Position numbers and translations under genes: made by a program. A DNA stretch of 23,292 bases from a virus. The stretch spans positions 1-23,292 of the IMG/VR virus record IMGVR_UViG_3300020428_000087; one strand, written 5' to 3'. The notes beneath the pieces were generated by a model that was not told the origin of the DNA, ran no database searches, and saw only the letters and a program-made list of their open reading frames with translations. Below, in pieces: positions 1 through 23,292 of this stretch (the first letter of the stretch is position 1; each line of letters starts with the position of its first letter).

Positions 1-1303
1 TAGAAGCAAGACCCATTGGTTGATAGTATTTCAACACTCCAGTTACTTTATCCCATGATGCCACGTAACCAACAGCAGTTGATCCAACACCAACTGTCTG
101 TGTTATTTCGGAGTCAACTGCATATGTTGTTGCAGTTGTAAGTCCTCCTAATTTCAAAGCTTTTAATCCACTAACAATGGATGTATCAAGTAGTTCAGTA
201 TCACTACCAAAAACAGTAGGATTCTTAAGAATACCAACCCTAGCAAAGTCATTACCTTCAATGATATCTGGGTTAGTTTCTAATGTTTCAAATCTTGCGT
301 AAAGAAGAGCTCTATAAGCACCCAACTCTCTATAAATGTCATATCCATGACCACCTTTTGGTGGAACAACAACATTGAATTGTGCTATGGATGTTGTACC
401 TATACCAGTATTGGTTAAGTTAGCAAGAGGACCACCACTTTCACTGCCAGGAGCGCCTGGGAAGAACTGAAGAGATCCATGAGTGTATCCTGTACCACCA
501 TCGGTAACAAACACCTCAGATACTTTTCCGAAAGAATCTACAGTAATGGTTGCTTTACCATCAACACCATCTCCCAGAATAGGAACATTTGCAAAGGATG
601 TAGAGATAGGCTGATAACTTGCACCCCTATCATTAACTACAACAACTTCAATTTTACCATCAATTGCATTATTTTTAGTAGCAATTGTTTCTCCAGTCTC
701 ACCCCATTGTTCTGGAACGGGGATATATTCGATGGAATCAAACTTTACGATTTCCGAAGGTTTAATCGTGTAAAGGTATTTCCAAACATAACCGTCGCCA
801 CTAGTACCAGCTGCCCTAGGCTCAAGGTCAATAAATGTGGGTTGGTCATACGAAGGCCTACCCTTTGGGTTCTCTGGATCTGATCCATTTTGTAAGCACA
901 CATACACTTTCAAGTCTTCATTAACGACATAATAATTTGCCTCATAGAGACTACCCTGACTTGTAATTGGAGTCAAGTTGTATATGTTATAATCATGTCG
1001 ATACATTTCATATGTAGTACCTGCCACCCACTTAACCTTTCTCACCAATCTACGAACATCCTTGTCCGTGATTTTCTTCATTGCAATAGTTGATTCCTTA
1101 ATGGAATACTCTTCTTGGAATCCATCTAAAGGAGATGGAGTGTTAGTAGCCCAAGTACTTGTACCACCAGCTTTGGGTTCAATTGAATTAGGTAATCCAA
1201 GAAATGCATAATACTTATTTACAGTCGATCCCACACCAACAAAACTTTTAACAAAAGTCTCGGCGTTCAGAATCCTGAATTGTTCAGAAATAATGGCAGG
1301 CAT
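1..1303 (-). CDS. gp8: Baseplate wedge protein gp8, N-terminal 434 residues (cut by left window edge)
   Basis: T4 gp8 is a structural component of the baseplate wedge, which assembles with gp6, gp7, gp10, gp53 and gp25. I translated this frame by hand: it opens at ATG 1303-1301 and has no stop before position 1, so the 3' end is missing. The N-terminus MPAIISEQFRILNAE is typical of cyanophage gp8. Family landmarks are the GDGYVWKYLYT segment (about residues 169-179) and PPKGGHGYDIYRELGA (about 314-329). T4 gp8 is about 334 residues, so this copy, already 434 without a stop, is enlarged. Between the two landmarks lies an extra beta module with a GGTGY motif (about 269-273), the same motif that recurs in the two giant neighbours. 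No clear Shine-Dalgarno sequence precedes the ATG. A degenerate late promoter lies 25 nt upstream. The identity rests on motifs and on the gp6...gp8 synteny. Confidence 0.9.
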   Translation of the reverse strand, partial: MPAIISEQFRILNAETFVKSFVGVGSTVNKYYAFLGLPNSIEPKAGGTSTWATNTPSPLDGFQEEYSIKESTIAMKKITDKDVRRLVRKVKWVAGTTYEMYRHDYNIYNLTPITSQGSLYEANYYVVNEDLKVYVCLQNGSDPENPKGRPSYDQPTFIDLEPRAAGTSGDGYVWKYLYTIKPSEIVKFDSIEYIPVPEQWGETGETIATKNNAIDGKIEVVVVNDRGASYQPISTSFANVPILGDGVDGKATITVDSFGKVSEVFVTDGGTGYTHGSLQFFPGAPGSESGGPLANLTNTGIGTTSIAQFNVVVPPKGGHGYDIYRELGAYRALLYARFETLETNPDIIEGNDFARVGILKNPTVFGSDTELLDTSIVSGLKALKLGGLTTATTYAVDSEITQTVGVGSTAVGYVASWDKVTGVLKYYQPMGLAS

Positions 1304-1338: not shown

Positions 1339-4300
1339 TTAAGTTAGAGGTTTTATTCTGGAAACCACCGCAGCAGTGGATAATCCTGTTAATCCATTGT
1401 CTGGATTTACCAAGAATTCTTGTGGAGCACCAGCTCCTCTATTCTGATATCCGTAGATTTGACCCCATGTATATTTACCGTAGAAGGTATCAATAAGAGT
1501 TGAAGTGACAAATCCCACTTGAATATCACTGTTATTATTTGGACCAGGCTGGAAGGCACATGTTACTGTTACTAAACCAGAAACAGAATCACCATCAGTT
1601 GCATATTCTACTCTGAATATACCACCAAGATTATCTCCAGCTGTAATTATTCCAACTTTATTCAAAGGATAATTATTAATTCCACCGATGGCAGTTGTGA
1701 TTCCAGTCAATGCATGACCAACAACACAAGGACTATCATAAACTATAAAGTAATCATCCTTCTGCAATTGACTATAATTAATTCCCAAGGCATTAAGTGA
1801 AGAATATCCATATCCAAGGTTAGTATTATCATTGAAATCAGACTTCAATGTGAATTGTAACCTAGGCGGAATAGTAACACCTATACCAGGCATCCAAGTA
1901 TTAATACCAACAATAGTACCAAAATCACCTCTGGTTCTAAGTGAAAGAATATCTTCCTTCTTAGTAACATCGGATTGAACTAAAGATGGAGGGGAACTTC
2001 CAACATCATATCCAAATCCACCATCAAGGATATTTACACTTGTTATGACACCAGCAGTAACCGAAGCAGTTGCAGTTGCTCTATTGACTATTGGATCTGC
2101 ATAGAAAGCAGTTGTTCCAGATCCTACAGCAAGAACTCTTCTACCCTGACTTGGACCATAATTGGTCGATACAATATCCTTAATATTATTAGGATGATTT
2201 ACTACACGACCATTCCAATTGATTAGATCGAATGAATAATAAAGACTACCAGTAGTACTTATTCCAATGTAGATACCATCGATATACTTAAGAGTTCTAA
2301 AATCAAATGTAGCAGGATGAATTGCATTGTTATATTGTTGCTGACTCCAAGGTTCCCAGTAGTTCTTATCGGAAGAAACTCCAATAGTTCCATTATCTCC
2401 AACTGTGATGAATCTATTTCCATCGTAGATAATATCGTTCAAATTATAATTTGTATTACTTTGTTTTGGAGACCATATAGTTCCATCATTGGATGCAATT
2501 ACAGCACCACCATTTCCAACTGCAATAAACTCTTGTTGAGCATAAACCAATGAATTTAGATCCTGTAATGTATTAGAGAATCTACTGTAGTATGAATCAC
2601 TAGTAACACCAGTAGCAGTAAAGATAGATCCAGCAGCACCAACTGCAACCCAAGTATCTCTCGATCCTTCCCAGAGTACATCATTGAAACTACCAGCATA
2701 TTCACTTACATAAGTTACTGTCAAATTCAAAGCAGGAACTTGTCTCTCTTCCTTAAGATCCATTTCCTTCCAAGTGGTAATACTATTACCAACACCCATT
2801 GCTCTTGCAAGACTTCCAAATTCTCCAGCAGCAACAACATGAAGATCAGTAGGAGCAGAATATGTCCAACCAACGCCAACGGCATTGAAGGAAACTGTTC
2901 CACCAAATCCAATACTTCCTCTTTCCCAGAACTCGCCACTCTTAGTATTAATGTATCTACTACTACTTCCAACGGCAAGGAAAGGTTCTTCTGTAGTAAA
3001 TGCGTTCCACTGGACATCATCAGTTACACCAGTTATTCCATCAAACTTCCAATCCTTAATAATATCCTTCTTCTTAATTGCAGAATTAGATATTGAAATT
3101 ATTGGATTAGTGAGATAACTATATCCAGATCCACCACTTGTAATAGTCAAGGATGATATACTAGAAGAAGTAGAAACTAGAGAAGTAACAATGCCTGGTT
3201 CAATATCATAGTCTTCAAAAATCTGTGCATTTCTCTCAGATTGTGTTAATAGGTCAATATCAGAGAATACTGGATATGCATTATTAACCCAAATGATATT
3301 ATCACTACTACCCACATTTCTAATAATTCTAGTTGTAGGAACAATCCTAGCCTTTAAACTTGGTCTTGCCTTAGAAATTAGAACACCAGAAACAACCTTA
3401 TCTACCTTCTGTTTTTCCCACGTAATTGGTCTCTCAGCAGTTTGATTAGTATCAATACCGATACTATCATATGCAGCAGTTTCTAAAACATCAGAAGCAA
3501 CAATTCTCTTACCTGTTCTTGGGAACTGATCGATATCAAAGATATTATTTTTATTTTCTTTGATCTGAACAATATCACCAGCCTTAACGGTCAATGGTGG
3601 TTCAACTGTTTCAACATCCCTCTTAGATCCTCTAAAGTAGAAGATAGAACACTTGGAATTGGGTTTTGGTGGTTCAGTAAATACGATTCTACTACCCTTA
3701 AAGATATAAGCAGATTGGGGAGTCTGTAGAATATCATTCATGTAAATGAAGATATTGTTAGTGATATCCATATCACTACCAGGCAAAGTCTTAAGACTCA
3801 ATATCTCAGTAGTACCACCCGTTGTAACAGATAAAGTAAATTTCTTACGTATTCCATTAAAGTATGCAGAAATACTATCAAATAGTATAAACTGTCCCAT
3901 ATAGAAGGATGAGAAGTCATCATTCTCTAGATCAGTTACACTTAACTGGAACTCTGTAAGAACACCGACTCTAGGGTCACTTGATAGTCCAGCAACTGTT
4001 AATGCCTCAGTAATCTTATATCCAATTCCTTCTTCAGTTAGATTGAACTGACCAATATTACCATCAACATTAACACGTAAATCAACTACACCATTTGTTC
4101 CTATTCCACTGCTACCACTAATATACTCTAAAGGTAGGTTAAAGTATGGATCTGGTTCAACAATCTCTAAATCTATTGGTTTATCAATTCTACCACCTCT
4201 CTTGAAGTTGGCATATTCAGTAGTTAAACCAAGATTAACTCTTACACTACCACCATCAATTCTTTCTAGAACATCTACTCCAGAATATCCATCACCAGTA

Positions 4301-7300
4301 GAAGATGTTACTCTCTTACCGTGGAACATCTGACCACCTCTATTGTAGTGGTGAACACAAGTTGATATACCAACATTAACGACATATTCAGTTGGAGAAA
4401 GAATCTTATCAATAAATGTTCCTCCAGAAGCATAATCAGATCCACTTACTGAATTATTAACAAGTCTAGGAGCAACAATAGCACCTTGAATTGTTCCACC
4501 AGTCTTATAGAATGTTGGTACAGTAGATACACCAACGTTCATTTCTACTTTAGTACTACTGATAACTCTAGTAACCTTAGTACCATCAAACCAAGGATCT
4601 CCTTTCTTAGGATATGCGTGTGCCTGAACATTACCATCTCTAGTACAAGTGAATGTTAAAGCACCTTGTTCATACTTAAAGTTAGTTCCAGCAGTGAAAC
4701 TATGACCAGCACCAACTGTCATTGTCATAATACCGACAACTTCATTATAAGTTGCAGCAGAAGCGGTGTAAGTAACAGCAGTTGTTGTACCTACATTTAC
4801 ACTTAAAGTATTTGGTTCAGATGTATCAACAGTTAGTTTAGAATTATGGGCTGGGTCTGAAGAACGAGGATACTTATGTTCGGTGGAGTTATCATCCATC
4901 GCACAAGTATATGTTAGAGAATCTGTAACAATTCCAACACTTCTACTGTAATCCACTCCATGTGCATTATCAGTTGTTAATTCAACCCATCCTGTAGAAG
5001 GATTGTAAGTAGCATTAGTAACATTTACTGGAGTTATTGTGGTTATACCAACATTAACTGTAATGGAGTTTGTACTATGTGTCTTAATACCTATCTCTTG
5101 ATTATCGATAGGATCTCCAGTATTGATTGCCTTACCAACATTTAATGTTACAGTATTCTGAGTTGTTGCTCCAATTGCAACATTCTTGTTGTGTATGGGA
5201 TCTGTTGTTCTAGGATATGAATGGTTACTAGCATGTCTATCCTTAGCACAAGTGAATATCAAGGAATTAGTAGCAATTCCAATATTATCTCCAACTACAA
5301 GTGCATGATTAGCAGAAGTTAAAGTTAATATTCCAGTTATTCCTGTATAAGATGCAGCAGAGACATCTAATACAGATCCAGCAGCACCAACATTAACGGT
5401 GATACTAGTTGCAGTAGTAGATGCAATAGAAATTACTTTTGCATTATATGGGTCAGTTGCACGAGGATATGCATGATCACTAGCATAATTATCCCTTCCA
5501 CACTTGAATGTTATACCACTTGTAACGATTCCAACCTTAAGTTGACTATCAACTGCAAGAGTAACTGTTGCAGGATCAACCGTCATAGTCATAATACCAG
5601 TTGAACCATCATAAACAGCAGTGGTTACACCAGCATATTGAAGAGTAGATACACCAACATTACATGAAATAGTTGTTGCAGTTACTCCAGTAATTGGTAT
5701 AGACTTCCTATGTTGAGGATCAGTTGTACGAGGATAAGCATGATTTGAAGAATGACTATCTCTTGCACAAGTAAATGTTATACCACCCGTTGCAATTCCA
5801 ATTCCGCCAGGAGTTGAAGCTGTTAATCCATGACCAGATGGAACAGTAATTGTCAGAACACCTGTAGAAGGAATGTAAGTAGCGGTAGAAATATTTGTTG
5901 TTACTATTGTAGAAACACCAACATTAACTGTAATGGTATTAACTGTAGTTGCACCAATCGCAACGTTGGTCAATCCATGTACTGGGTCTGTAGTACGAGG
6001 ATATGTGTGTTCAGTAGCATGAGCATCTCTAGCACAAGTGAATGTTAAAGAATCAGTCTTAATTCCAACAGTATCAGTACCAGCAATAAGACCATGAGCA
6101 GAGCCGAACGTTAGTACTAGATTACCTGTAGCAGGGGCGTAAGTTGCACCTGTTGGAGTAAATTTAGTACCTGTCCAAGAACCTTTATGGACTGCATCAG
6201 TATTTTCTGTTCCAGCAACGAATGTGTGAGCATAATCACCACCAGTAAATGCAGCACCAGCCAAAGAACTAACGTAAGTGTGTGCAAAGTTGCCACCAAA
6301 CTCCAATGCGGATGATAATGCACTTGAGAACTGATGAGGATAAACTCCATCAACAAGAATTGCACCAGAATTAGCACTTACAAATGTATGAGCATATCCA
6401 GTTCTAGGATATGTGTGATTTGTTGCGTGATTATCTTGAGCACATGTAAATGTTAATCCATCAGTGGAGATACCTAAAGTTCCATTTGCCTTAGATAGTC
6501 CATCTGCATCTGCATTATAGAATACATGATTATAATCTCCACCAGAGTAGATTGAATCAGCAGTTGCAGAAATAAAGATATGATCAGATAGGTTTGAAGA
6601 TGTACCAACATCAAGAGTGATACCAGTTGCACTGGTAGAAACTATTCTAACAGCAGTGTTATATGCAGGATCTGGGCCCCCAATAGCTGTTGCTCTTGGA
6701 TAGAAATGATTTGTTGTATATCCATCCTTACCACAAGTAAATTTAAATGCACGAGTCTTTAATCTAACATTCTGACCCTTCGATAATTTGTGTGATCCTA
6801 TAGTTACTGTAAGATGTCCAGTAGCTGGATTATATGATCCTGCACTCGGACTCCATGAAGTTATTGTAGAAACACCAACATTAACACTAAAAGTATCTTC
6901 TGTAGTGTCAATAACTGGAGTCCATTTGGCTACTACTGGATCTGTACTTCTTGGATAACTATGAACTGTTTTTCTACCATCAAGACTACATGTAAATCTT
7001 AGAGAATCCTTTGCAAATTTTACCCTATCACCCGTAGTAAATCCATGATTAGGTACAGTACATGTGAGAATACCAGTTGCTCCATTATAATAAGCCATGT
7101 TAATGGTATAATAATCAGCAGACTTTAGAGATTCTCCAATTCTTGGTGATTCAATTACAAGTTCTCCAGTGGAAGGAGTATATGTAGAAGTTGATATCGC
7201 ATAAGTCTCTATAGTCGATACTCCAACATTTACTGTAAGTGTAGTTGCAGATGTTGATCCAATACCAACACTTAAGTTTCCACCATAAGGATCACTTGGT

Positions 7301-10300
7301 CTTGGATATGAATGTACAGTTCTATGTTCGTCTCTGGAACATGTAAATGATAGAGATCCTGTGTTGATTCCAATAGTATCAGATGCTTTCTTGAGTCCAT
7401 CAGCAAGACCAAGGAAGAATGTATGTGCAGTAGTGTTTGTAGAAACACCTACAAATACAGAGAAAGTATTAACTCCTACATTGTAGATTGGTAACCATTG
7501 ATTACTATATGGATCTGATGGACGAGGATATGAATGGGGTGCTGTGTAACCATCTTCAGCACACTTAAATGCAATTGATCCATCAACAAATTTAACGTAT
7601 TCACCACTCTTAAACCCATGAGAAGCAATTGTAGGTTCTATTACACCAGTAGAAGGTGTATATGTAGCGGTTGTAATCGTGTGTGAAGAGGTTGAAGTGT
7701 AAGTATGACCAGATCCAACTGTCAATACTAGATCACCTGTTAGAGGGTCATATGTAGATGTTGATATTGATCTCTTAGCAAGTGTAGATACACCAACTCT
7801 TACTGTGAAAGTATTTGTAGATACAGTTGTAATTCCTATATTCTGTCCATAAACAGGATCAGTCTCTCTTGGATATGCATGTTCTGTAGCATATCCATCT
7901 TTAGCACACTTGAATATTAGAGAACCAGAAGCTATTCCAACCTTTTGGACTGATCTTAATAGTCCTCCTGTAGATGCATTTTCAAAGGTATGAAGATAAT
8001 TACCACCACTAATAACTGCATCTGTTGAAACTCCAGTAAATTCATGATCATAATCACCACCAGTTATAACTGCATCAGCAGCAACACCTTGATTGGTGAT
8101 AAATGTGTGTGTAAAGTTTCCAGCAGAAGTTTGACCAATCTGCACCTCAAACATCGTACCAGCAACACCAATTACGGGTATAGCTTTATCATAATATGGG
8201 TCTGTAGGTCTTGGATAGAAATGAACTGTTGAGTTAGCGTCCTTCAAACAACTGAATGCTAAAGAACCAGGCTTAATCTTAACAGAGTCACCAACAATAA
8301 TACCATGATCTACAGTATCCAAAACAACTGTCATAATACCGACAGCAGGAGCATAATGAACGAATACTGGAGTACGTTTTACTATTGTAGAAACACCAAC
8401 ATTAACACTAATAGTTGTATCACCAACACCAGTTATAGGAACGGAAGTGTCATATACTGGATCTGTTGTTCTTGGATATGTCTTAATAGTCTGTTTTCCA
8501 TCCATTGAACACTTAAAGTTCAATGAACTATTTGCAATCTTAATACTAGTTCCCTGAAGTAAATCATGATTTCCAATGGTCATTGTCATGATACCAGTGG
8601 AAGCTGTGTAACTAGCGTCGGTAACAGTATGATTAACTATTGGTGATTTTCCTACAAATATCTCAAAAGTATCAGTTGTCTTATTCTCAACAGGAATCCA
8701 CTTATCACTAATTGGATCACTAGTTCTAGGATATGTGTGAGTGGATGCATATCCATCCATTGAACATTTAAATCCTAAAGAATTATCAATAACTTTAATA
8801 GTATCACCATTGGAGAACCCATGACTAGGTACTGTTATGGTTAAGATACCAACAACAGCGTTATATCTTGATGTGGTTATTGTATGTACAGAAGGACCAG
8901 ATAAACCATGACCATTAACAGTTAATGATAAGTCTCCCGTAAGTGGGTTGTAATCAGCAGCAGTTGGAGTTGTATTACTACCACCAACAACCGATATACA
9001 ATCAGTATTCTCAGAACCAGCAACAAATGTATGGTTATATGCACCACCAACTATAATTGTTTCTGGTAAAGAACTTACATAACGATGCGTATATGCACCA
9101 CCTTTAAATATTGCGTTTGATGCAGATGTAACAAACTTATGTTCAAAATCACCACCAGTTCTTAAAGCTCCATCAGTTGCTCTGATAAAGGTGTGATCAT
9201 ATTCTCCACCAAATATCAAACCACCTGTCTTTCCACTAACAAAAGTATGTACAAACTGATCTTGAGGTGGAGCATATCCAACTTGAGCACTAAAAGTAGT
9301 TCCTGTAATAGCAGTTATAGGAACGGAAGTATTATATGTACTTGACTGTCTTCTTGGATAATAATGTGTTCCAACACCTGCATCTATTTCGCAGGTCATT
9401 CCAATACCAGTTAATACAACGTCTTTACCTACTTTAAATCCATGATTGGCAGAAGTGGTAACGGTCATTACACCCGTTGTATTATCGTAGTCTGCACCAC
9501 TTAAATTAAGTCTAGGAGAATAGTCACAAGTAAATGCAATTCCACTAAAGACAACACAATCATCTTCTGATAAATTGTGGTTCTTTTTAGTAAGAACTGT
9601 TGCCATACCAGAGACGTTATCATATATGACTCTAGTTACCTCTACCGCAGGACTACTTCCAAATGTAACAGCAGTTCCAGTTGGTTGAATAAAGTCATCA
9701 GTAGATAATCCATGACCCTCTAATGGAACATAAGAACCAATACCCAAATGATGAGTATGAATTCCCACAGTTGTCATTCCAGCACCAATATTGACTTGGA
9801 AATTGACGTTATTTTCAATCTTGGTTATACCAAATACCCTTCTTGCATCACTTGGGAATGTTATATCCCCAATAGGAGTACTAAATGCAATACCAGCCAA
9901 TCTTACTGCATTATTAACTGTTAATCCATGTGCATATTGAGACTGTACAGTTGCAATACCTGTGGATGGGTTATACCAAACATTTGCAATTGCAGTACTA
10001 ATACCAAGTTCTTTTCCGTGAGCAGTTATGGTAGTAATTCCATCTGAAGGAGTTCCATCCAAATATGCGATTGATTTTGGTGTATAATATCCAGTTCCAC
10101 CATGAACAATAGAGAATGCTGTGACGATACCAGCTTCCATCCTCTCCACTACACCACCAGTTACATAATTATGTGCGAAAGTAGAAACACCAACAAAACA
10201 TTTAAATGTATTGGTAGTTACTCCAAGAAGATCAAATCCAGTTACATTCTTACCTTCTAAAATATGAGTATCGATACCAGATCTTACTGTACCACCAGCA

Positions 10301-11622
10301 ACATAAGTTAAAGGTTGAGTACCAACTCCAGTATATACTCTTACCTCATTTGCATTATCATTATTAACAATAGGATATCCATCTTCTCTGAATCTAAAAG
10401 TAGAGATACCGTCAGTAACATCTACAGCTTGAACTAAAATACTCCTAGATTGGTTAGTACCAGTTCCAATATAGTGACCACCAGATGCTCTTATACTTGC
10501 AATACCAGTAATATAATCATACCCAAAGAAAGCAATATTTCTAGCAGCAGCTGTTGGAGTAAATGTAAATCCAGCACCAGTAATTCTTATCCTATCATCT
10601 ATCTGATATCCATGAGCTGCATTTGTAGTAAATGTAGCAATTCCTGTAATATGATTGTATATTGCTGTAGTAATACCAACGGTAGTACCAGCATTAGTCC
10701 CCATCAGAGCAGTTACACTAGCTCCATATCCTTGAGAACTCTTAACAGTGATTTCAGGAACAGACCTATATCCTTGTCCCTTTCCAAGTACCTTACTAAA
10801 TTCTATAGCACCAGTAGTACCAACACCAACAGTACCAGCTGCTTTTAATGGAAAATAATATCCAGCTCCAGTTTGAAGACCTACTTTTACAATTCTTCCA
10901 GCTCTAGGTACTCCACTTAAAAAATTAATCTTGTTTTCTGTGCTATTAACAACCTCGAAATCAGCCCCAGGCGTTTGTACAATATTGTTTATCAATACAA
11001 ACGGATTATTATTAATATCAACCCCAGTATTTACGTTATTGTAGAGCGCAGATACTATACCTAAATTCTCAGTTAAAGTGAATTGGGTTCCAGCAACACC
11101 AGTAAATTCAAGAGCAATATCGTCTAAAATTACATTCTTATCTTGTTGCTCATATGGATCCAATTTTCTAGAGAATAATCTCCCAGAAAATGTAGAACCA
11201 GTCTCCAATCCAACAGGACCAGCTTTACCATATGGTGCGTCTGTGAAATAAATTGTATCATCTACAATATTGTAATCACCTGTAAAGACAGAATGACCAC
11301 TACCTATAGTATGACTAGTTGATATTGAACCGAATGCTCCACGTTCAACAACAACATCAGAAGCAGTTGTAGTACTAAAAACTGGATAATATCCTATACC
11401 ATTCTTGAATATTACTACATCCGATATCGTTCCAACGCCAGTAATGACAGGAAAGAATACACCCTCAATTGTGGGTGTCATTGTTCCGTCAATTTCTATT
11501 TTAGGTGGATCGGTCTTGGCGTATCCAACACCACCATCCAACACCTCAATTTTTTCTATTCCATAGTCGGAATTAAAATAAGGTCTTAGAAGAGCTCCAG
11601 ATCCAGGCGTAGTCCTTGGCAT
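1339..11622 (-). CDS. Giant modular virion protein (3427 aa) with YPR repeats, 18-residue repeats and a beta-propeller
   Basis: No single function can be named; it is probably a baseplate-periphery or fibre-like adsorption protein. It starts at ATG 11622, with AGGA 8 nt upstream, and ends at TAA 1341-1339. Order of parts: an N-terminal region with GGVGY-type motifs (residues about 25-40 and later) and an 'INNIVQTP' module (about 210-250). Next comes a long array of 16 C-x2-D-x5-H-x-YPR motifs (about 690-2350), interleaved with blocks of exact 18-residue GG-Y-H-F units. A second 'MNDILQTP' module follows (about 2625-2665). A repeat region with seven 'AVG'-type strands and S-x-D-x-x-x-W boxes looks like a beta-propeller (about 2866-3176). 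The C-terminal module ends near YGKYTWGQIYGYQ. I see no signal peptide or transmembrane segment. Repeats are diverged at DNA level and the frame is unbroken, so assembly collapse is unlikely. Synteny places it with baseplate genes, in the slot where T4 has gene 7; I see no resemblance to T4 gp7. Confidence 0.9.
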   Translation of the reverse strand: MPRTTPGSGALLRPYFNSDYGIEKIEVLDGGVGYAKTDPPKIEIDGTMTPTIEGVFFPVITGVGTISDVVIFKNGIGYYPVFSTTTASDVVVERGAFGSISTSHTIGSGHSVFTGDYNIVDDTIYFTDAPYGKAGPVGLETGSTFSGRLFSRKLDPYEQQDKNVILDDIALEFTGVAGTQFTLTENLGIVSALYNNVNTGVDINNNPFVLINNIVQTPGADFEVVNSTENKINFLSGVPRAGRIVKVGLQTGAGYYFPLKAAGTVGVGTTGAIEFSKVLGKGQGYRSVPEITVKSSQGYGASVTALMGTNAGTTVGITTAIYNHITGIATFTTNAAHGYQIDDRIRITGAGFTFTPTAAARNIAFFGYDYITGIASIRASGGHYIGTGTNQSRSILVQAVDVTDGISTFRFREDGYPIVNNDNANEVRVYTGVGTQPLTYVAGGTVRSGIDTHILEGKNVTGFDLLGVTTNTFKCFVGVSTFAHNYVTGGVVERMEAGIVTAFSIVHGGTGYYTPKSIAYLDGTPSDGITTITAHGKELGISTAIANVWYNPSTGIATVQSQYAHGLTVNNAVRLAGIAFSTPIGDITFPSDARRVFGITKIENNVNFQVNIGAGMTTVGIHTHHLGIGSYVPLEGHGLSTDDFIQPTGTAVTFGSSPAVEVTRVIYDNVSGMATVLTKKNHNLSEDDCVVFSGIAFTCDYSPRLNLSGADYDNTTGVMTVTTSANHGFKVGKDVVLTGIGMTCEIDAGVGTHYYPRRQSSTYNTSVPITAITGTTFSAQVGYAPPQDQFVHTFVSGKTGGLIFGGEYDHTFIRATDGALRTGGDFEHKFVTSASNAIFKGGAYTHRYVSSLPETIIVGGAYNHTFVAGSENTDCISVVGGSNTTPTAADYNPLTGDLSLTVNGHGLSGPSVHTITTSRYNAVVGILTITVPSHGFSNGDTIKVIDNSLGFKCSMDGYASTHTYPRTSDPISDKWIPVENKTTDTFEIFVGKSPIVNHTVTDASYTASTGIMTMTIGNHDLLQGTSIKIANSSLNFKCSMDGKQTIKTYPRTTDPVYDTSVPITGVGDTTISVNVGVSTIVKRTPVFVHYAPAVGIMTVVLDTVDHGIIVGDSVKIKPGSLAFSCLKDANSTVHFYPRPTDPYYDKAIPVIGVAGTMFEVQIGQTSAGNFTHTFITNQGVAADAVITGGDYDHEFTGVSTDAVISGGNYLHTFENASTGGLLRSVQKVGIASGSLIFKCAKDGYATEHAYPRETDPVYGQNIGITTVSTNTFTVRVGVSTLAKRSISTSTYDPLTGDLVLTVGSGHTYTSTSSHTITTATYTPSTGVIEPTIASHGFKSGEYVKFVDGSIAFKCAEDGYTAPHSYPRPSDPYSNQWLPIYNVGVNTFSVFVGVSTNTTAHTFFLGLADGLKKASDTIGINTGSLSFTCSRDEHRTVHSYPRPSDPYGGNLSVGIGSTSATTLTVNVGVSTIETYAISTSTYTPSTGELVIESPRIGESLKSADYYTINMAYYNGATGILTCTVPNHGFTTGDRVKFAKDSLRFTCSLDGRKTVHSYPRSTDPVVAKWTPVIDTTEDTFSVNVGVSTITSWSPSAGSYNPATGHLTVTIGSHKLSKGQNVRLKTRAFKFTCGKDGYTTNHFYPRATAIGGPDPAYNTAVRIVSTSATGITLDVGTSSNLSDHIFISATADSIYSGGDYNHVFYNADADGLSKANGTLGISTDGLTFTCAQDNHATNHTYPRTGYAHTFVSANSGAILVDGVYPHQFSSALSSALEFGGNFAHTYVSSLAGAAFTGGDYAHTFVAGTENTDAVHKGSWTGTKFTPTGATYAPATGNLVLTFGSAHGLIAGTDTVGIKTDSLTFTCARDAHATEHTYPRTTDPVHGLTNVAIGATTVNTITVNVGVSTIVTTNISTATYIPSTGVLTITVPSGHGLTASTPGGIGIATGGITFTCARDSHSSNHAYPRTTDPQHRKSIPITGVTATTISCNVGVSTLQYAGVTTAVYDGSTGIMTMTVDPATVTLAVDSQLKVGIVTSGITFKCGRDNYASDHAYPRATDPYNAKVISIASTTATSITVNVGAAGSVLDVSAASYTGITGILTLTSANHALVVGDNIGIATNSLIFTCAKDRHASNHSYPRTTDPIHNKNVAIGATTQNTVTLNVGKAINTGDPIDNQEIGIKTHSTNSITVNVGITTITPVNVTNATYNPSTGWVELTTDNAHGVDYSRSVGIVTDSLTYTCAMDDNSTEHKYPRSSDPAHNSKLTVDTSEPNTLSVNVGTTTAVTYTASAATYNEVVGIMTMTVGAGHSFTAGTNFKYEQGALTFTCTRDGNVQAHAYPKKGDPWFDGTKVTRVISSTKVEMNVGVSTVPTFYKTGGTIQGAIVAPRLVNNSVSGSDYASGGTFIDKILSPTEYVVNVGISTCVHHYNRGGQMFHGKRVTSSTGDGYSGVDVLERIDGGSVRVNLGLTTEYANFKRGGRIDKPIDLEIVEPDPYFNLPLEYISGSSGIGTNGVVDLRVNVDGNIGQFNLTEEGIGYKITEALTVAGLSSDPRVGVLTEFQLSVTDLENDDFSSFYMGQFILFDSISAYFNGIRKKFTLSVTTGGTTEILSLKTLPGSDMDITNNIFIYMNDILQTPQSAYIFKGSRIVFTEPPKPNSKCSIFYFRGSKRDVETVEPPLTVKAGDIVQIKENKNNIFDIDQFPRTGKRIVASDVLETAAYDSIGIDTNQTAERPITWEKQKVDKVVSGVLISKARPSLKARIVPTTRIIRNVGSSDNIIWVNNAYPVFSDIDLLTQSERNAQIFEDYDIEPGIVTSLVSTSSSISSLTITSGGSGYSYLTNPIISISNSAIKKKDIIKDWKFDGITGVTDDVQWNAFTTEEPFLAVGSSSRYINTKSGEFWERGSIGFGGTVSFNAVGVGWTYSAPTDLHVVAAGEFGSLARAMGVGNSITTWKEMDLKEERQVPALNLTVTYVSEYAGSFNDVLWEGSRDTWVAVGAAGSIFTATGVTSDSYYSRFSNTLQDLNSLVYAQQEFIAVGNGGAVIASNDGTIWSPKQSNTNYNLNDIIYDGNRFITVGDNGTIGVSSDKNYWEPWSQQQYNNAIHPATFDFRTLKYIDGIYIGISTTGSLYYSFDLINWNGRVVNHPNNIKDIVSTNYGPSQGRRVLAVGSGTTAFYADPIVNRATATASVTAGVITSVNILDGGFGYDVGSSPPSLVQSDVTKKEDILSLRTRGDFGTIVGINTWMPGIGVTIPPRLQFTLKSDFNDNTNLGYGYSSLNALGINYSQLQKDDYFIVYDSPCVVGHALTGITTAIGGINNYPLNKVGIITAGDNLGGIFRVEYATDGDSVSGLVTVTCAFQPGPNNNSDIQVGFVTSTLIDTFYGKYTWGQIYGYQNRGAGAPQEFLVNPDNGLTGLSTAAVVSRIKPLT
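2095..3030 (-). other. Putative seven-bladed beta-propeller domain within the 3427-aa protein
   Basis: About residues 2866-3176. Seven short hydrophobic-AVG-x-x-G strands follow one another: FLAVGSSS, VVAAGEFGS, WVAVGAAGS, FIAVGNGGA, FITVGDNGT, YIGISTTGS and VLAVGSGTT, mostly 35-60 residues apart. Several are followed by Asp-box-like pieces (SNDGTIW, SSDKNYW, SFDLINW). This pattern fits BNR/Asp-box or YCF48-type propellers, which often bind glycans or proteins. The fold is inferred from repeat count and motif only. Confidence 0.6.
6195..6400 (-). repeat. 18-residue GG-Y-H-F repeats, block D
   Basis: About four tandem units of exactly 18 residues (54 nt) with pattern GG-x-[YF]-x-H-x-[FY]-V-S-A-x4-A-[IL]-x. 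Examples start GGNFAHTYVSS and GGDYAHTFVAG. The block is attached directly after the YPR of copy 10 (YPRTGYAHTF) and ends in HTFVAGTENTDAV, nearly identical to the end of the block at 9015-9255. Confidence 0.88.
6510..6600 (-). repeat. 18-residue GG-Y-H-F repeats, block C (short)
   Basis: One complete and one partial unit (DHIFISATADSIYS, then GGDYNHVFYNADADGL). The block leads into YPR copy 10 through a linker of the form DGLSKA...GIST, seen in similar form before copies 5 and 7. Confidence 0.75.
7970..8125 (-). repeat. 18-residue GG-Y-H-F repeats, block B
   Basis: About three units lie between YPR copies 4 and 5: a THTFITN start, then GGDYDHEFTGV and GGNYLHTFENA. The GGDYDHEF unit is exactly 18 residues; the first is slightly longer. 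The block ends in GGLLRSVQKVGI, an alternative linker into the next F-x-C motif. Confidence 0.82.
9015..9255 (-). repeat. 18-residue GG-Y-H-F repeats, block A
   Basis: Four to five tandem units lie between YPR copies 1 and 2. The Gly-Gly codon pairs (plus-strand ccacc) recur at exact 54-nt steps, starting near 9041, 9095, 9149 and 9203. Units begin GGEYDHTFIRA, GGDFEHKFVTS, GGAYTHRYVSS and GGAYNHTFVAG. The block ends in AGSENTD, followed by a Y-NPLTG strand. Confidence 0.9.
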
Positions 11623-11635: not shown

Positions 11636-12658
11636 TCAAAGAATGTTAAGAGAACTACTGCAATATACCCTTGCGGCTCCAGTACTATCTCTAATAATAC
11701 TAAAGGTTAGAATATCGTCTGCACTTGTTGAAGGAGGAGGATTTCCACCAACCCAATGAATACCACCAGCAACAGGAATACTATTCACTTTAACTGCATC
11801 ACCATAAGTAGCACCAACCCCTGCGTTATTAATCAAAGTAATCGTAGTAGCCTTACTATTTAACGCAGTTACATTCGTGAAATCCCAAGTTACAACTGAT
11901 GTTGTTAGGCCTCCAAGAAGAACAGACCCTTGCGAAACATCTACAGTTAAAGTACCACCAACAGCTGTTAATCCATCTGTCCATTTACCAACTACTTTCT
12001 CAGTAATATCTCCATTTAAGTGAGATGTACCACTAAAAGTACTAACACCAGTAACTTGTACATCGCCCCTAACATCCAATCTAGAGGATGGAGCAGTAGA
12101 TCCTATACCACAATAAGCACCAGCAGTAACAACAAAACTTTCGGAAGGTGTTGCTAATTCATTAGATGAAACTTGAAGTCCATGTGCATCACCTTTAGTA
12201 ATAGCCCATATGGCTGGTCTTTCATTTGAATATGAAGCAACTTGTAACTGTGATGTTGGAAGAGAAGTTCCAATACCAACCATCCCGTCGGATCTAATCC
12301 TAAACATGGTTGTAGCATAACCAATCTCTATAGGACCATCAGCAATTGCACCAGGCTGTTGAATTGTTATCTTACCAACATCAGCATAACTGGTAGTTAC
12401 AACACCACTAGTGTTAATATCAATTGCATTACTTACATTCTGAGCAGTTCCAGCGTATGTCGAAGTTGTTGCAATACCACAATTTGTAGAGTATCCAGCG
12501 GTACTAGCGTAAGATACGAAACTAATCAAGTTCGCACCATCTCCAAAGACTGTATAAACATCTTCAAAGTTGGAATTAATTTTGATTGTTCCTGCCAACA
12601 GGGTATCGCCTGTCCCATCATTAGGGGCCGAACCCGTGTTTATCCCTTGTCTAGCCAT
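11636..12658 (-). CDS. Fibre-like virion structural protein with MARQGINTG N-terminus (340 aa)
   Basis: Probably a small tail-fibre or baseplate-decoration protein; exact role unknown. The N-terminus (residues 1-41: MARQGINTG, DGTGDTLL, IKINSNF, GDG) is a signature I associate with structural proteins of T4-like cyanophages. It may act as an attachment module. The middle has fibre-shaft type repeats: VGIGTSLPTSQLQV (127-140) and CGIGSTAPSSRLDVRGDVQVTG (183-204), with VSTFSG following. This 'IGTxxPTSxLxV' pattern is common in trimeric phage fibres. The C-terminus has a WVGGNPPP-type segment (about 302-310) and a beta-rich end, with no S74 chaperone peptidase domain. A perfect late promoter lies 21 nt upstream of the ATG, so this gene begins a late transcript that probably also carries the 3427-aa gene. 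No Shine-Dalgarno sequence is obvious. Confidence 0.87.
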   Translation of the reverse strand: MARQGINTGSAPNDGTGDTLLAGTIKINSNFEDVYTVFGDGANLISFVSYASTAGYSTNCGIATTSTYAGTAQNVSNAIDINTSGVVTTSYADVGKITIQQPGAIADGPIEIGYATTMFRIRSDGMVGIGTSLPTSQLQVASYSNERPAIWAITKGDAHGLQVSSNELATPSESFVVTAGAYCGIGSTAPSSRLDVRGDVQVTGVSTFSGTSHLNGDITEKVVGKWTDGLTAVGGTLTVDVSQGSVLLGGLTTSVVTWDFTNVTALNSKATTITLINNAGVGATYGDAVKVNSIPVAGGIHWVGGNPPPSTSADDILTFSIIRDSTGAARVYCSSSLNIL

Positions 12659-12688: not shown

Positions 12689-15600
12689 TTAATATGGAGG
12701 GTTGTCATCGTGAGTCGCTAATGTTGTTCCCATACGAGTAACAGAAGAGTTCATTCTCTTGGTATCGTAATAGAAATTATTATCAACAGTACTCTCAACA
12801 TTTGCATATCTAGCCTTAACAAATGAGGTATCGCCAATTGACTTAACCTTCATCAACTCATCATCAATCTTAAGAATATCACCACCTGATAGAGAACTAA
12901 TTCCACTGGAAATAACAATTCCCTGATCAAGTTTAGATATCTGAGATCCTATTCCTACACTGAGTTTTTTGTTCTTAATAGGAGTTTGAATGATATTATC
13001 AATCATAATAAGAGCATTCAATGTAGGATCTGCATACTTCAGAACATGTGTTCCTGTACCCAATCCAGTAAAGTCCATTGGAAGTGCAGTAGCAATTCCA
13101 GACAATCTAAATGTAACATCATCAATCTTCTGTACAAATACCCTATCAGGCATATTTGTAGTTCCAAGTTCAATTGGAGTCATATACAAATCATCAGCGG
13201 GTGTAGCACCTCCAATATATGTTCCAGCAATAGAAATTCTATTGGTAACTGCATATCCAGTTCCACCCTGAACAACATCAGCAGATACTACATCCAAATT
13301 AGCATCTCTAGTTATATTGAATGTAGCACCACTACCAGATCCATTATTTGTTGATGGTAAGTCATAATATGTTGTTAAGATACCAGTTCTTGTTCCTGTA
13401 ACAGAAGTAACGGGGAATGTAAGGTTATTGGCAGGATTTGCACCACCCAAATGGGTTCCAGCAATACTTACAGTATCACCAACATCATATCCAGTACCAC
13501 CTTTAATCAATACAACAGCAGTCGATATTGCAACACCACTTGTTTGATCATAATCAAATTTAACTTGGAATCTTGCTCCAGTACCATTTCCAGTAGTTAT
13601 TCCAGGCAAACCACCATCAGGACTACCAAATCCATACCATCTATAGACGACTATGGGATTTGAAGTAACAGCAACACCTGTTACAGGGCCTGGGATTTGA
13701 ACGTTATAACCATTCTCATACATGGCACTAGATCCAGTACCAGATGTAACAACAGACATAACGATGTCCTTTGTTCCTGCTGCCATGGAAGTAGTTGCAA
13801 TACCAATTGCATCTCCACCCTGATTGTCATATATTAATTCTTGACCAGACTGGAAGTTGTGGCCCTGAATACTAATAGTGTTATTAAGTACGCTAACAGC
13901 AGTAGTATCAGAAGCACCAAATGATACTCTGAATACTGGTCTATTATCTGATCTTAACTTAAAGTCTCTATTTCCAACTAAAGTACCAGTTCTATCATGA
14001 GCACCAGTAAATCCCTGAGAGATATCATCCAATTTTAAGACCTTATTAGTCTTATTAAGAATGTAACTCTTAATTGGTCTTCCTTCTGGGAAATATATCC
14101 TCTGTACAGATCCATCATCTAACGCATCATCTTCTGTTACCATACAGAAGTTCTGCTTATTACCTAAGAATACTTCGTTATCAATATTGATTAAGAGATC
14201 AACCTTTTGATCTGCTGGTTGGACTCTCATGTTGTTGGATTTTGCAATACCAACATTTACAAGGTCTAATGAATTAGCATCTTTCTTAGAATCACTCGTA
14301 ATAACCAAATCAGAGAATTCTAGGAATCCTGATGGGTGTAGAATAGATCTTACAGATTCTTTCCACTGATTATATGGAAGATCACTCTTAATTGAATAAG
14401 AGAACTTCTGATAGTAGAAGTTATCGGATAATCTTTGACCGAAATCATTAAGAATACCGAAATTCATATCATTCTTGGATACTTTATTTCTAGTAACTCC
14501 AAGTTTTGTTTTAACCTTGAATTTGGTTACATCTCTAACATTTCCTTTAAGATCCGATACCTCTCCAGTTAAAGTTTCTCCAGACTTAAGTATTCCTTTT
14601 GTATCTCTAAGTCTTAACTGGTTTAATCTTGTATTCCAACCATTTTCAGCAACATATCCTTCAAATTTAGATGAAGTTACCCTTTCTCCAGAAATATATT
14701 TTCCATCATCAATTAACTTCATCTCAAACTTAGCCATATCGTTGTAATTAACGATATAACCTAAAGTAAAGTCATCATCATATTCACCAAGAGTTACAGT
14801 GTTAATTCCAGCAACATTAGCCATACTGTAAGTTATGGTGTAGTTTGTTGTATTAACTCCTGTTACTGGGAAGAAATTATAGTCATAAATGTCTGAGTTG
14901 AAATTACTTTCACCTTGAGTTATTGAATCTGGTTTTAACCTACATCCTTCAATGAAAACTAGATCACCAATTGCGAATGGAAGACTAATATCAGTAGAAG
15001 CATATCCAGCAGTAATTGGTTTATTAAACTGAGGATCAAGAAGAAGTTCTACAGTTACATTAGTACCAGAATGTGTAATAGTATCAATATCATATCCATT
15101 AGAGTTCTTAGTAGTAATGATACTTAATGGTTCATTAAATTCATAAGCATTTTCAACAATTTCTACCCTATCAACAGATCCACCAACAACATGAGCAGCG
15201 ATCTTAACCTTATCATTACCACGAACAGTTAAAGTTGGTGGTTGAGTATATCTCTTTCCACCTGTTGTCACACCAACAGAATCCATTCTAGCAATTCCAT
15301 TAATATCTACAATTGCAGGAACACTAAGGAATGGTAGTAGTGTAGGATCAGTTGGATAATCAAATCCGTCTTTTATCCTCTCCAAATTATCAACTTCACC
15401 AATTTCAGGAGAAGATACTTTAACTATACCATCTTTACCTTCAGTACTAGCAAAACCAATAACTTTAGGTAATATTCTATAACCTTTGCCAGGGAAATTA
15501 ACCTTAGTTTTAGCAATTGGTCCTCTAGCTGTAGAAGAGTTAGTTCTATAAGTTATTGTACTAACACCAACCCTAGAAACATACATTTGAGGTTCTGTAG

Positions 15601-18600
15601 GTTTCTCTGTCAAATTGAATGTAAATTCCTTAGAACCATTCCAAAGAACACTATGTTCTGCCTTAATAACAATCTTATTGAAAGTTACGTTATTTCTACC
15701 AGTAACTTCTGTATCTGAGATACCATAAAGTTTCCTTGCATCAGAAGGAACAACAGGTGTCAAGTTATAGTAACTCTTTCTTGGCCAATCAGTGTTAGAT
15801 CTAATACTAACAGTAGCACCGACAGTGCCTGGAGTACCACTTCTAGTAATATTAAATCCTAAAGTACTATCACCACTTACATCCATTCTATTGACGAAAT
15901 CAATATCCTCAAAGAAGTCCAACTGTAAATCAGCAAGAGTCAAATCAGAAACATCAAAAGTAACAGTATTACCTGTAGTAAAGTTTAATGCAGGATTAAT
16001 TTTAGCAAGAGAATATGTACCAACCGCTACACTAGTAATAGTAACTACCTTAGCGTCATCTACATCTCTTCTATGCTTACATAATTTTATTCCACTAACA
16101 TCTTCCCTTAGAATGAAATATGTTTCATTATCAATTAGTCCAGCTATAGCATTTCCACCTGAATAATATACAACTTTATCACCACTTTGGAATGTTGGAT
16201 TATTAATTGCAATTTGAGTTAAATCTGCACTGAAATCATTATTATCAAAGGATATCTTTTCAGTAGTAATCTTAGCAAGAACTGGATCATATCTTAAAGT
16301 AACATTCTCAGTTGCAGTAGGTATTGCATCAATAGTAATTACATCACCATTTCGTAGATTATGATCAGTTTTAGTAGTTACCTTTCCATAATATCTCTCT
16401 ACAGTAGAATTAACTCTTGGGAAGTTAGTAGTAAGAGAATGAGCAAATCCAACAACATTGGATAAAGTATAGAACCATATAGCATCTGCAGCAGTAGGGA
16501 ATCCAACTGTGGATAATCCAATACGATCTCTACCCAAATTTACAGCATAAACATCTGATCCATTTTCCAATACTTGTGTTCCGATACCACTTGTTGATCC
16601 AACAGAAGTTTTAGCCCAAACAATAGATGTACCAGCATAACCAATATCATAGGTCAGTTTCTGACCAGTGGCAATGGTATGTCCCTTGGGCATATAGATT
16701 GATCTCTCAGGAACAAATCTATTCTCTATAGTTGCATTACCAGCAGTTCCCAATCCAGTAGCTACTACATCATAATGTGTTCCAGTTGATCCAATACCAA
16801 GTGTCTCTTTTGGATCAAAATAAACATGATAATTTTTCTCTGAAGTATATGTAATATCATTATTACCCAACCCAAAGGAGAATTTGGTTGGTTTTAAAAC
16901 AACATTAGCAGTTCCTACTCCATGTGTTACAGCCATACCAACATAATATTCCCTCTTAACACGAAGTCTTGAATAATAAGGATCAATATCAAGAACCTGC
17001 ATAGTTTCAGATCCAATACCAATAATATCGTCCTGCTCAAATCCAAAAGTATCTGTTACACTAATATACGTACAAACTCCAGTAGTACCAACATTTGCAA
17101 GTTCTATAGACAACCCAACGGATCTACTAATAACTTCTACCTTCTGAAGTCCATTAAAAGGTGTGAATTGTGAAGTTGAAATTCCAGAAAGATGTATCGT
17201 TTCACCATTAGCAATTTCATGTGGAACTGTTGTTATACCAACAATCTTATTACCAACCAACAATAGATCAGTTTGAGGAAAAGTGGATACACCAATCTGT
17301 ACTGCATCAACTTCAGCACCTAAAACTTCAGAAACAACAATATTTGTTCCAGTACCATCTGTACCAGTATTGTCTAAAGTAAGACTATCATCTACCTTAT
17401 AACCAGATCCTCTAGCAAAAATAGTTACTGATGATATTCCAGCAGTTTTAGTCTTAGTTACATTAAATCTCTGTTTATAAGTATCACTAATTTTGTCAAT
17501 AAGATCATAATCAGAGTTTCCGTAAGAGAAATAATATGGACCAATATTTCTTGTTAGTTCATTAGCAATTACGGGATTGTCTTGATTGAAGAAGGTAATA
17601 AAGTTATCTTCAATTGGAAGATCCTTAAACTTAGTACCCATAATGTATGGATACTTAGGTCCAGCAACACCACTAGAATCAACATCTACACTATAGAAAT
17701 ATGCATATGTTCCATCTGGATATTGTGGGGTTATACAGTACCTTCCACCATATTCATCCAGATTTCCCGAATTATCATACTTAAAGTCATCAATAAAGTA
17801 TCCCAGAGCGTATCCAGGCGGTCTCAGACCAACTTTAGACGTGGTATCGACAATATACCCAGTCGTTAGTCTTATGACACTACCACCAGTCGGATTCTCA
17901 AAACCATAAGGTCCATATATTGGATTACCGTCATAAGCATAACCTAATATTGGAGAGTGTTGTGGATTTGTAGATTGTTCTAAATTACCAGAATCAATAT
18001 TATCACCAAGTTGATATCTCAACTTCTTAGGTGGATACATTGATACTGTTTGAAGTTGATACTCTGGGTTATTACTTGGTTTGGTTAGAAGTGAATCTTC
18101 ATCACTAATAATATTCTCATTCTTAACAACCTGATTAACTTTCCACTCGTGAATATCAGCAATGAACTTAGCTCCAGTACCTCTGTTCTGTAAAGTTAGT
18201 ATTGTATCACTACTTGCATATCCAACTCCTCCATCAAGGATCTGAACACCAGTTATTTTGTTATTTGTAATAACTGGAGCAACATCAGCAAATCTACCTT
18301 TAGGACTAGATACAATTATATCAGAATCTTCTCTAAATCCATTACCAGACGCAAGTATTTGAACATCTACAATAGAACCACTAATAATGATTGGTTTTAA
18401 CAATGCTTCTGTAGTAATTGTCGATATACCAACATTAGGTCTTCTATGGAAATCTAAAATGTTAGTACAACCGTATCCAGTACCACCTTCTTCCAAATAA
18501 ACACTTTCAATACTTCCAAGTACCTTTGGACGTATAGTAGGTTGAATAATTGTAGTAGATCCTATAGCAGATAGAGTTTCAACAGAAACAACAATAGGAG

Positions 18601-21688: not shown

Positions 21689-21691
21689 TTA
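21686..21691 (-). promoter_or_regulatory. Abutting stop-start junction TAAATG (gp6 to the 2999-aa gene)
   Basis: The gp6 stop TAA (21691-21689) is followed at once by the next ATG (21688-21686). Upstream, the minus strand reads TATACAAGATAA, with only a weak purine stretch and no late promoter. Translation of the giant protein probably depends on ribosomes finishing gp6. Confidence 0.6.
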
Positions 21692-23292
21692 TCTTGTATA
21701 GACTGAACCGCTTGTGTAGCTGGAGGTGGTGACGTATGATGTAGCAGATGTATTTTCACCAGAAGAAATAACGTCTGGAATAGCACTCACTGTACTATGT
21801 TGAACATCCAATTGTAAATACAAATCCTTCAGAGCAATAACGTCATTAGATGAAGGAATTCCTTCTATCTGAATAGTTCCGTTTGCCAATGAAGTACCTG
21901 TTATATTTACCACATCTAAAATAATCTCTCCTTTGGAATAATCAATTGTTCCAGCATCGTTTTTAACGACAAGAGGTAGATTATTTTCAAGTTTAAAAAA
22001 TACTAGTCTTCCTGTGTCAGTTCCTGTTATGGGAATATCACCAAGATAAACTGTTCCACTAATATTACTTACCGTAAATCCTGTAGATTTGATACCATAA
22101 CCATCACACTTCTGGAAGAACCCGTTACCATAACAAAGTTCATATGTAGCAAATACATTGATCTCAGGTGTTATATCCCTTCTCATCTTAACTTTCGTGA
22201 TGTTAGAAGTAACACCTCTAGCAGAGTCATCAATTAGACCAACAACTTTACTGTATTTGAATCTTCCACCAAAAGCATTGATATCCGTTGATTTAGAATA
22301 CGTAGTTAATGTCTTAAGTACAGATGTTCTTAAATCAGTTACATTGGATATTGAGTTTGTGTTGTAATAAACAGCAGAATCAACTTCAACATAAAGGTAC
22401 TTAAGATCAACAATTTCTGGTTTAATTCCAGCAATAGAATATTGTTTTAATTGTGTGGATATACTATCCTTGGTAATTTGTGATAAGAATGAACCATTTC
22501 TAGGTTTTACTGAAATGAAGACCTTTCCATACTCAGGGGGATCAAGTTCCTCACCCCCGTAGGCGGTCACAGACTCGACGTTAGGATAAACATATGGAAT
22601 GATACCCTTATAGTCGTTTGCCGTTACTGCACGATACTGTGCAGCGTATATACGGGGTGCTAGGTATTTGATTGAACTGATATCTTCTACACTATCACCA
22701 TTTCCAGCACTAGATGTGGTTGTTAGTAATGAAATACCACTTGTAATGGTTGTATCTGTATCATCCTTTAAAATACCAATAAAGGAGAAGTTACTAGCAC
22801 CGTTAGCAAGAGGACCATTAGTTACAATGTAAGTTACAGTAACAGTAGCTCCAGCAGGTGGTTTCTTACCTAAAATTCCATCACCAAATAAAATCTCATA
22901 CTGTTCATCTTCAATTTCCTGAATTAGGAACAATTTAGAAGTAGAATCTACTCTTAAAATATTATCATACAGAGCATATATCTCTTTTGTTGTAGATTCT
23001 ACTGTAACACGAATAGAAGTAGTATCAATATTCGCATTTGGAAGAACATATCTCTGATTTGGTTGAGAATAGTCAATTGTGAAGGTTTTTGTTAAATAAA
23101 CACCCTCATAAACGGACATATTATTGAAAAGTGAGACATTATTGTCATCTACAGTGGCAACAAAGTCATCTGGAATGGAAAATATGTACTGACCACCCTG
23201 TTGATTACCTAATGCAACCTGTCCAGCTTTTAAAATTACAATTCTAGTATCATTTGACCCCAAATCTACACTGAAATTAACAGTAGCAGTAG
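21689..23292 (-). CDS. gp6: Baseplate wedge protein gp6, C-terminal 533 residues (cut by right window edge)
   Basis: gp6 forms the inner ring that links the wedges of the T4-type baseplate and drives the hexagon-to-star change during contraction. The frame is open to the window edge (TATVNFSVDLGSN precedes the TTG at 23263). That TTG is therefore not the start, and probably around 100 residues are missing. T4 gp6 is 660 residues. Landmarks are YEILFGDGILGKK followed by ANGASNF (about 120-155 from the TTG), and YRAVTANDYKGII with VYPNVESV and GGEELDPPEYGKVFISVKPR (about 208-255), the typical gp6/baseplate J-like core. The protein ends at TAA 21691-21689. The tail beyond the core is Ser/Thr-rich and ends with SYTSGSVYTR. 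It is the first of the syntenic series gp6 - giant - fibre - giant - gp8. Confidence 0.93.
   Translation of the reverse strand, partial: TATVNFSVDLGSNDTRIVILKAGQVALGNQQGGQYIFSIPDDFVATVDDNNVSLFNNMSVYEGVYLTKTFTIDYSQPNQRYVLPNANIDTTSIRVTVESTTKEIYALYDNILRVDSTSKLFLIQEIEDEQYEILFGDGILGKKPPAGATVTVTYIVTNGPLANGASNFSFIGILKDDTDTTITSGISLLTTTSSAGNGDSVEDISSIKYLAPRIYAAQYRAVTANDYKGIIPYVYPNVESVTAYGGEELDPPEYGKVFISVKPRNGSFLSQITKDSISTQLKQYSIAGIKPEIVDLKYLYVEVDSAVYYNTNSISNVTDLRTSVLKTLTTYSKSTDINAFGGRFKYSKVVGLIDDSARGVTSNITKVKMRRDITPEINVFATYELCYGNGFFQKCDGYGIKSTGFTVSNISGTVYLGDIPITGTDTGRLVFFKLENNLPLVVKNDAGTIDYSKGEIILDVVNITGTSLANGTIQIEGIPSSNDVIALKDLYLQLDVQHSTVSAIPDVISSGENTSATSYVTTSSYTSGSVYTR

Follow-up and report, generated by a model that had tools for sequence, protein, structure and literature searches.

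Cyano- and pelagimyophages lack the gp7 protein of phage T4, which has seemingly been replaced in them by another large protein (PMC7029224). Two cyanophage proteins, i.e., the product of gene 103 of Synechococcus phage S-SSM7 ('gp7, baseplate wedge', 3001 amino acids (aa), UniProt E3SL21) and gp7 of Prochlorococcus phage P-SSM2 (5195 aa), are compared here with the product of a 3427-aa open reading frame (ORF) located at 1339..11622 on the minus strand of the IMG/VR virus record IMGVR_UViG_3300020428_000087, a DNA of 23,292 bases that was analysed over its whole length and is called the window hereafter. This repeat protein adds a member to the cyanophage gp7-type family, shows homology to S-SSM7 gene 103 (E 0.0) and to P-SSM2 gp7 (1e-105), and harbors an array of units marked by a motif of the general form C-x2-D-x5-[H/K]-x-YPR. 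Gene 103 occupies the same operon position, shares ~55% identity over the N-terminal part and contains 12 motif copies, including His and Lys forms, of which copies 1-10 are orthologous to those of the window; it differs by a variable block comprising fewer units and by the Lys found at its copies 2, 3, 6 and 8. P-SSM2 gp7, with 7 motif units in its C-terminal part, covers the homologues of both giant ORFs of the window, the repeat ORF and a 2999-aa ORF, but consists of a single fused gene, whereas the two window ORFs are separated by a connector gene. S-SSM7 infects Synechococcus WH8109 and P-SSM2 infects Prochlorococcus NATL1A.

With respect to the unit itself, the endosialidase beta-barrel (PF12195; K1F, phi92) may share its predicted fold and resembles it in its ~83-aa length and in the possession of an HGLxxGDxVxF core and a TFxV strand, but lacks the C-x2-D-x5-H-x-YPR hairpin and occurs as a single domain within a catalytic propeller, its link to sialic acid being experimental. 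The repeat array, in contrast, is tandem and gives no match to End_beta_propel, so that it is not set in a catalytic propeller, and the best PF12195 match in the repeat protein (12.8 bits versus a cut-off of 35) lies outside the motif units. The E1_FCCH domain (PF16190) resembles the unit by a remote fold match and by a sequence match, below the threshold, to a unit without the motif (aa 672-695), but is a domain of the cellular ubiquitin E1, devoid of the motif; its sequence score reaches 22.7 bits for a curated cut-off of 29.5, and one of the 16 motif units is matched at E=0.16. Finally, PHROGs 5342, 2885, 701 and 1276 match strongly along the array but correspond to whole-protein families (tail fiber, baseplate wedge, virion structural and unknown), the names of which mention neither unit nor motif.

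The motif array of the repeat protein

The pattern C-x2-D-x5-H-x-YP[RK] occurs as 15 exact copies in the repeat protein, and a sixteenth copy, at Cys1038 (CSMDGKQTIKTYPR), possesses a Lys instead of the His. All copies belong to the single ORF, where they span 4606-9393 on the minus strand, and the corresponding DNA pattern gave 12 matches in the window versus none in 100 dinucleotide shuffles. The array is real and far above chance, in line with the initial annotation, which had described sixteen copies of an invariant C-x2-D-x5-H-x-YPR motif in one protein. Strictly speaking, however, there are 15 exact copies, and the invariance of all motif positions does not hold, since His exchanges with Lys and the last copy (unit 16) ends in YPK instead of YPR. 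A uniform unit of 84-89 residues had also been proposed; this length accounts for about half of the Cys-to-Cys intervals, which range from 74 to 209 residues (209, 85, 87, 114, 115, 74, 117 and 85 for copies 1-9; 97, 136, 89, 89, 84, 115 and 86 for copies 9-16). According to the profile searches, the unit is a domain of ~84 residues, present in full or nearly so in 13 copies. The three others are partial, with unit 5 covering profile positions 24-83 of 84, unit 7 positions 21-83 and unit 10 positions 21-56, and all three have kept the motif. Upstream of the array, at least three motif-less stretches starting at aa 317, 545 and 661 match the first half-domain only. The units are distributed as follows:

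9520..10674, minus strand: region of three first-half units without the motif (aa 317-356, 545-580 and 661-701)
9268..9507, minus strand: unit 1 (Cys744)
8638..8886, minus strand: unit 2 (Cys953)
8383..8631, minus strand: unit 3 (Cys1038; Lys instead of His)
8125..8373, minus strand: unit 4 (Cys1125)
7780..7962, minus strand: unit 5 (Cys1239), without its first part
7435..7683, minus strand: unit 6 (Cys1354); His here, Lys in S-SSM7 and in relative L015
7210..7404, minus strand: unit 7 (Cys1428), without its first part
6862..7110, minus strand: unit 8 (Cys1545); His here, Lys in S-SSM7
6592..6852, minus strand: unit 9 (Cys1630)
6397..6507, minus strand: unit 10 (Cys1727), motif hairpin and little of the barrel
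5905..6162, minus strand: unit 11 (Cys1863); onset of the block that expands or contracts between phages
5641..5895, minus strand: unit 12 (Cys1952)
5377..5628, minus strand: unit 13 (Cys2041)
5128..5367, minus strand: unit 14 (Cys2125)
4777..5025, minus strand: unit 15 (Cys2240)
4519..4770, minus strand: unit 16 (Cys2326; YPK)

Among all fetched units, the conserved positions of the domain are Y8, G13, H22, F39, C41, D44, H/K50, Y52, P53, R54 and D57. Besides the six motif residues initially reported, Y8 (96%), G13 (99%), H22 (87%), F39 (88%) and D57 (90%) are thus near-invariant, and most of the remaining positions vary freely. Loci retrieved by means other than the motif pattern give 98% for C, 92% for D, 74% His and 17% Lys at the His position, 96% for Y, 100% for P, 93% for R and 91% for D57.

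Other repeats occur in the same protein. Another short repeat, GG-x-[YF]-x-H-x-[FY], recurs every 18 residues exactly in three runs between the motif units (window 6187-9267), in the stretches aa 805-876, 1188-1223, 1694-1711 and 1776-1811; it seems to stand in for what units 5, 7 and 10 lack. Towards the C-terminus, aa 2860-3180 (window 2083-3045) display repeated A-V-G-x-x-G-x-I-x-x-S-x-D-x-x-x-W-like patterns with the look of beta-propeller blades, for which no Pfam or PDB sequence match was found.

Selection, age and distribution of the array

A comparison of the window with relative L015 revealed an amino-acid change in 2 of 96 motif codons versus 216 of 1208 other unit codons (Fisher p=6e-6), and no significant difference in synonymous change between the two classes (p=0.15). 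Both motif changes of L015 consist of a His to Lys replacement made by two base changes apiece, and the Lys copies of S-SSM7 similarly reflect a His/Lys exchange at orthologous copies. Copies 1-10 are, with few exceptions, orthologous by position with those of S-SSM7, L017 and L040, the weakest pairing being that of copies 8 and 10, and because they pair in this way with S-SSM7 the array is old. Copies 11-15 do not pair position-wise with any of these three relatives; moreover, copy 15 of L017 is closest to copy 11 of its own protein (76%), so that it is near the C-terminal end that the array gains and loses units. The view of the initial annotation, that strong selection rather than recent duplication explains the constancy of the motif, is accordingly upheld for most of the array and fails for its end, copies 11-15. 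In two other loci, L109 and L134, the units occur in recurring triplets with Lys-His-Lys at the His position.

Relatives were sought with single-protein scans and DNA-pattern scans. By tblastn they were detected in ~300 phage records, all from Synechococcus or Prochlorococcus phages, cyanophages or marine viruses, and the motif occurs in at least 120 stretches of IMG/VR, with 1 to ~19 copies per protein (e.g., 7, 12, 14, 16 and 19). The array is widespread in cyanophage-type viruses and as yet undescribed, no description of the motif having been found in the open-licence literature searched. The suspicion that the family exists in databases among proteins annotated only as structural is supported, the relatives being named no more than 'structural', 'tail fiber' or 'gp7'. 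A cellular origin of the motif was also considered and rejected: its best case, a 188-kb contig of Nonlabens xiamenensis 1Q3 (L162, NZ_RMVE01000006.1), matches cyanophage P-TIM40 at 98.7% identity across the 8 kb tested and thus represents a contamination by phage DNA. Phage DNA is the best reading of the matches in assemblies of bacteria and archaea, as checked on the Nonlabens contig alone. Giant proteins mutating under coevolution have been reported in S-PM2d (PMC9910659). As candidate carriers of the motif they were discarded, since it occurs in none of them within the stretch read; they offer positional support for gp7-region genes only.

Predicted fold and candidate role of the motif hairpin

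The AlphaFold model of a single unit (predicted local distance difference test (pLDDT) 89.1, predicted template modelling score (pTM) 0.76) and that of units 2-4 (8107..8901, minus strand; three tandem beta domains, mean pLDDT 88.6, pTM 0.57) both agree with the all-beta units anticipated in the initial annotation; the domains are predicted to be well formed, and their relative placement is uncertain, as indicated by the pTM of 0.57. In the single-unit model, the Cys comes after strand 42-45, the Asp is located in a short helical turn (47-49), and the His, Tyr and Pro-Arg residues occur in or just past strand 54-57. The top couplings of a coevolution analysis on 643 units (38-49, 40-46, 35-51 and 38-51) agree with this motif hairpin. 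Against the PDB, Foldseek ranked the endosialidases 4hiz, 3ju4 and 1v0e best for the single unit (probability 0.98-0.99, TM ~0.5, E 0.09-0.36), the part of the endosialidase aligned not being specified by the fold search, followed at a lower level by ubiquitin E1 structures including the FCCH half-domain. The three-unit model gave nothing significant against the PDB, plausibly owing to the uncertain relative positions of its domains. A profile comparison with six endosialidase barrels yielded a probability of 85% over 23 columns, with a score of 33 versus at most 13.5 in 40 column shuffles, and the matched K1F residues, 442-465, fall inside the Pfam End_beta_barrel (424-506). On the basis of these models, the unit would represent a variant, itself undescribed, of a known kind of fold, nearest to the K1F/phi92 endosialidase beta-barrel and the E1 FCCH half-domain. 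A common ancestry of the unit and the endosialidase barrel receives moderate support, since unrelated beta families were not among the controls. No Pfam family above cut-off explains the motif, either in the whole protein or in each unit, and PDB sequence searches with the protein and the unit profile returned chance-like matches only. In this respect, a characterised domain accounting for the motif, the outcome that would have refuted the initial annotation, was not encountered by sequence in Pfam or the PDB, the remote fold relative coming from Foldseek.

The repeat protein would probably consist of small beta-barrel domains arranged in a chain and adopting the endosialidase-barrel/E1-FCCH fold, each full barrel with a beta-hairpin inserted at the loop that contributes to sialic-acid binding in the K1F endosialidase barrel. 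In K1F, residues S460, S468 and G504 are part of the sialic-acid site of the barrel and affect host discrimination (PMC12632334). The K1F match stops at residue 465, where the unit goes on with the motif hairpin, which is missing from the endosialidase barrels; we infer that the hairpin elaborates the loop on the ligand side. The residues of C-x2-D-x5-[H/K]-x-YPR-x2-D would occupy the turn of the hairpin and its flanks. The six motif residues vary too little between phages of different hosts to be what determines specificity, and are therefore read as a clasp, in which the shape of the hairpin may be fixed by a Cys in a buried position, an Asp that caps the helical turn, the basic His/Lys and an Arg-Asp pair. 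The variable residues around this clasp, repeated many times, could offer a multivalent and evolvable surface towards cell-envelope glycans, and the array may define how far the arm extends during adsorption. It is probably shaped as a rod and would assist the virus in holding on to the cell surface.

The best explanation of the 3427-aa protein combines these elements: it would make up the repeat-rich half of a giant protein of the gp7 type, part of the baseplate wedge or a fibre in a T4-like cyanophage, and would be built as a modular adhesin-like rod from endosialidase-barrel/FCCH-type units, with the motif as a structural clasp and a surface facing glycans. We consider its chances of being correct or wrong to be about equal. 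Several points weigh against it. The Foldseek E-values are weak, at 0.09 or worse, and the profile match is restricted to 23 columns, with column shuffles and a reversed profile as controls, no unrelated beta families being included. In the isolated cyanomyovirus S-PM2, no unit was found in the ~75 kb read, including the genes on either side of gp8, so that phages of this kind do not obviously depend on the array. In addition, the clasp arrangement of C, D, H/K, Y and R and the glycan contact of the cyanophage units are both deduced, the latter from the position of the hairpin in the fold.

Some of the same observations lend themselves to other readings. The location of the hairpin where the endosialidase barrel has its binding loop, together with the presence of Asp, His/Lys, Tyr and Arg, which are typical sugar contacts, would also suit a motif acting itself as an invariant binding site for a glycan common to picocyanobacterial envelopes, and a copy number varying from 7 to 19 is what avidity would predict. 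The strongest conserved residues, however, are Cys and Pro, atypical for sugar contacts, and receptor sites usually diversify by host, whereas the motif is near-identical in Synechococcus and Prochlorococcus phages, which leaves this reading rather unlikely. A broader proposal sees in the hairpin an undescribed module that binds glycans or forms cross-links, carried by an endosialidase-type barrel, repeated up to ~20 times per baseplate arm and common to a large fraction of cyanomyoviruses, the His and Lys forms being two functional states of each module; this is to be regarded as unlikely and somewhat speculative. Depending on the phage, the copy number differs even among relatives and the variable block corresponds to one end of the array, as would be expected from a passive spacer or length ruler of the baseplate or fibre devoid of any binding role; a pure spacer, however, would not need copies 1-10 to retain separate identities across phages, and we find this quite improbable.

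The chemistry of the motif suggests two further possibilities. Cys, Asp and His often serve as metal ligands, and all three are gathered here in a single short loop; pyocin fibres contain buried iron, magnesium and calcium (PMC6116203). These points would be consistent with a metal-binding site stabilising each domain, a role that metals play in several phage fibres. Lys, a poor metal ligand, nevertheless replaces His in ~18% of units and is exchanged with it between orthologous copies, and the replacement is specific to Lys, with Gln, Asn and other residues rare; the His/Lys exchange argues against a metal site, to which we assign a distinctly low probability. A covalent role of the Cys, by a disulfide between units or chains or by a bond to a Lys/His partner, could account for its status as the most invariant motif residue (99%, over 800 unit columns) and for the occurrence in the motif of 16 of the 26 Cys of the protein. 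Each unit contains a single Cys and no second conserved one, however, so that no disulfide is feasible within the unit; the spacing between adjacent units varies, and most covalent chemistries would be altered by the His-to-Lys exchange, which makes such a link very improbable.

Baseplate operon and implications

All the ORFs of the operon read from the minus strand, in the order gp6, 2999-aa gp7-like ORF, 340-aa connector, 3427-aa repeat ORF and gp8:

21689..23290, minus strand: gp6 baseplate wedge subunit, 5' end cut
12689..21688, minus strand: 2999-aa gp7-like ORF with a YHYH domain, homologue of the N-terminal part of P-SSM2 gp7
11636..12658, minus strand: 340-aa connector, of the T4 gp9/gp10 N-terminal type
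1339..11622, minus strand: 3427-aa ORF with the repeat array, homologue of S-SSM7 gene 103 and of the C-terminal part of P-SSM2 gp7
11335..11622, minus strand: ~96-aa N-terminus of the repeat ORF, 38% identical to the N-terminus of another P-RSM6 ORF of the same operon (CPXG_00125)
2..1303, minus strand: gp8 baseplate wedge subunit, truncated at the end of the window

The repeat ORF lies between gp6 and gp8 in a T4-like cyanophage baseplate operon, with the same gene order in S-SSM7. Proteomic surveys of cyanophage virions have been published (PMC3037559). Residues 7-2606 of P-SSM2 gp7 align to the 2999-aa ORF and residues ~3186-4927 to the 3427-aa ORF; judging from this alignment, the window and S-SSM7 would thus hold the giant gp7 in a split arrangement with the connector gene between its halves, a statement of layout that implies no direction. 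The neighbouring 2999-aa ORF contains the YHYH domain at aa 1172-1336 (Pfam E=5e-20), predicted as a metal-dependent hydrolase in one paper (PMC7824862). This domain (PF14240) was rejected as the source of the motif because it sits in the adjoining ORF, the 3427-aa repeat ORF giving no Pfam match to it.

The recognition of picocyanobacteria by cyanomyoviruses is poorly known, and their baseplates possess giant undescribed proteins instead of the T4 gp7. A foldable module of 84 residues with a near-invariant hairpin, present in ~300 phage records, offers a concrete object for structural and binding work, and its definition allows many 'virion structural protein' annotations to be rewritten.

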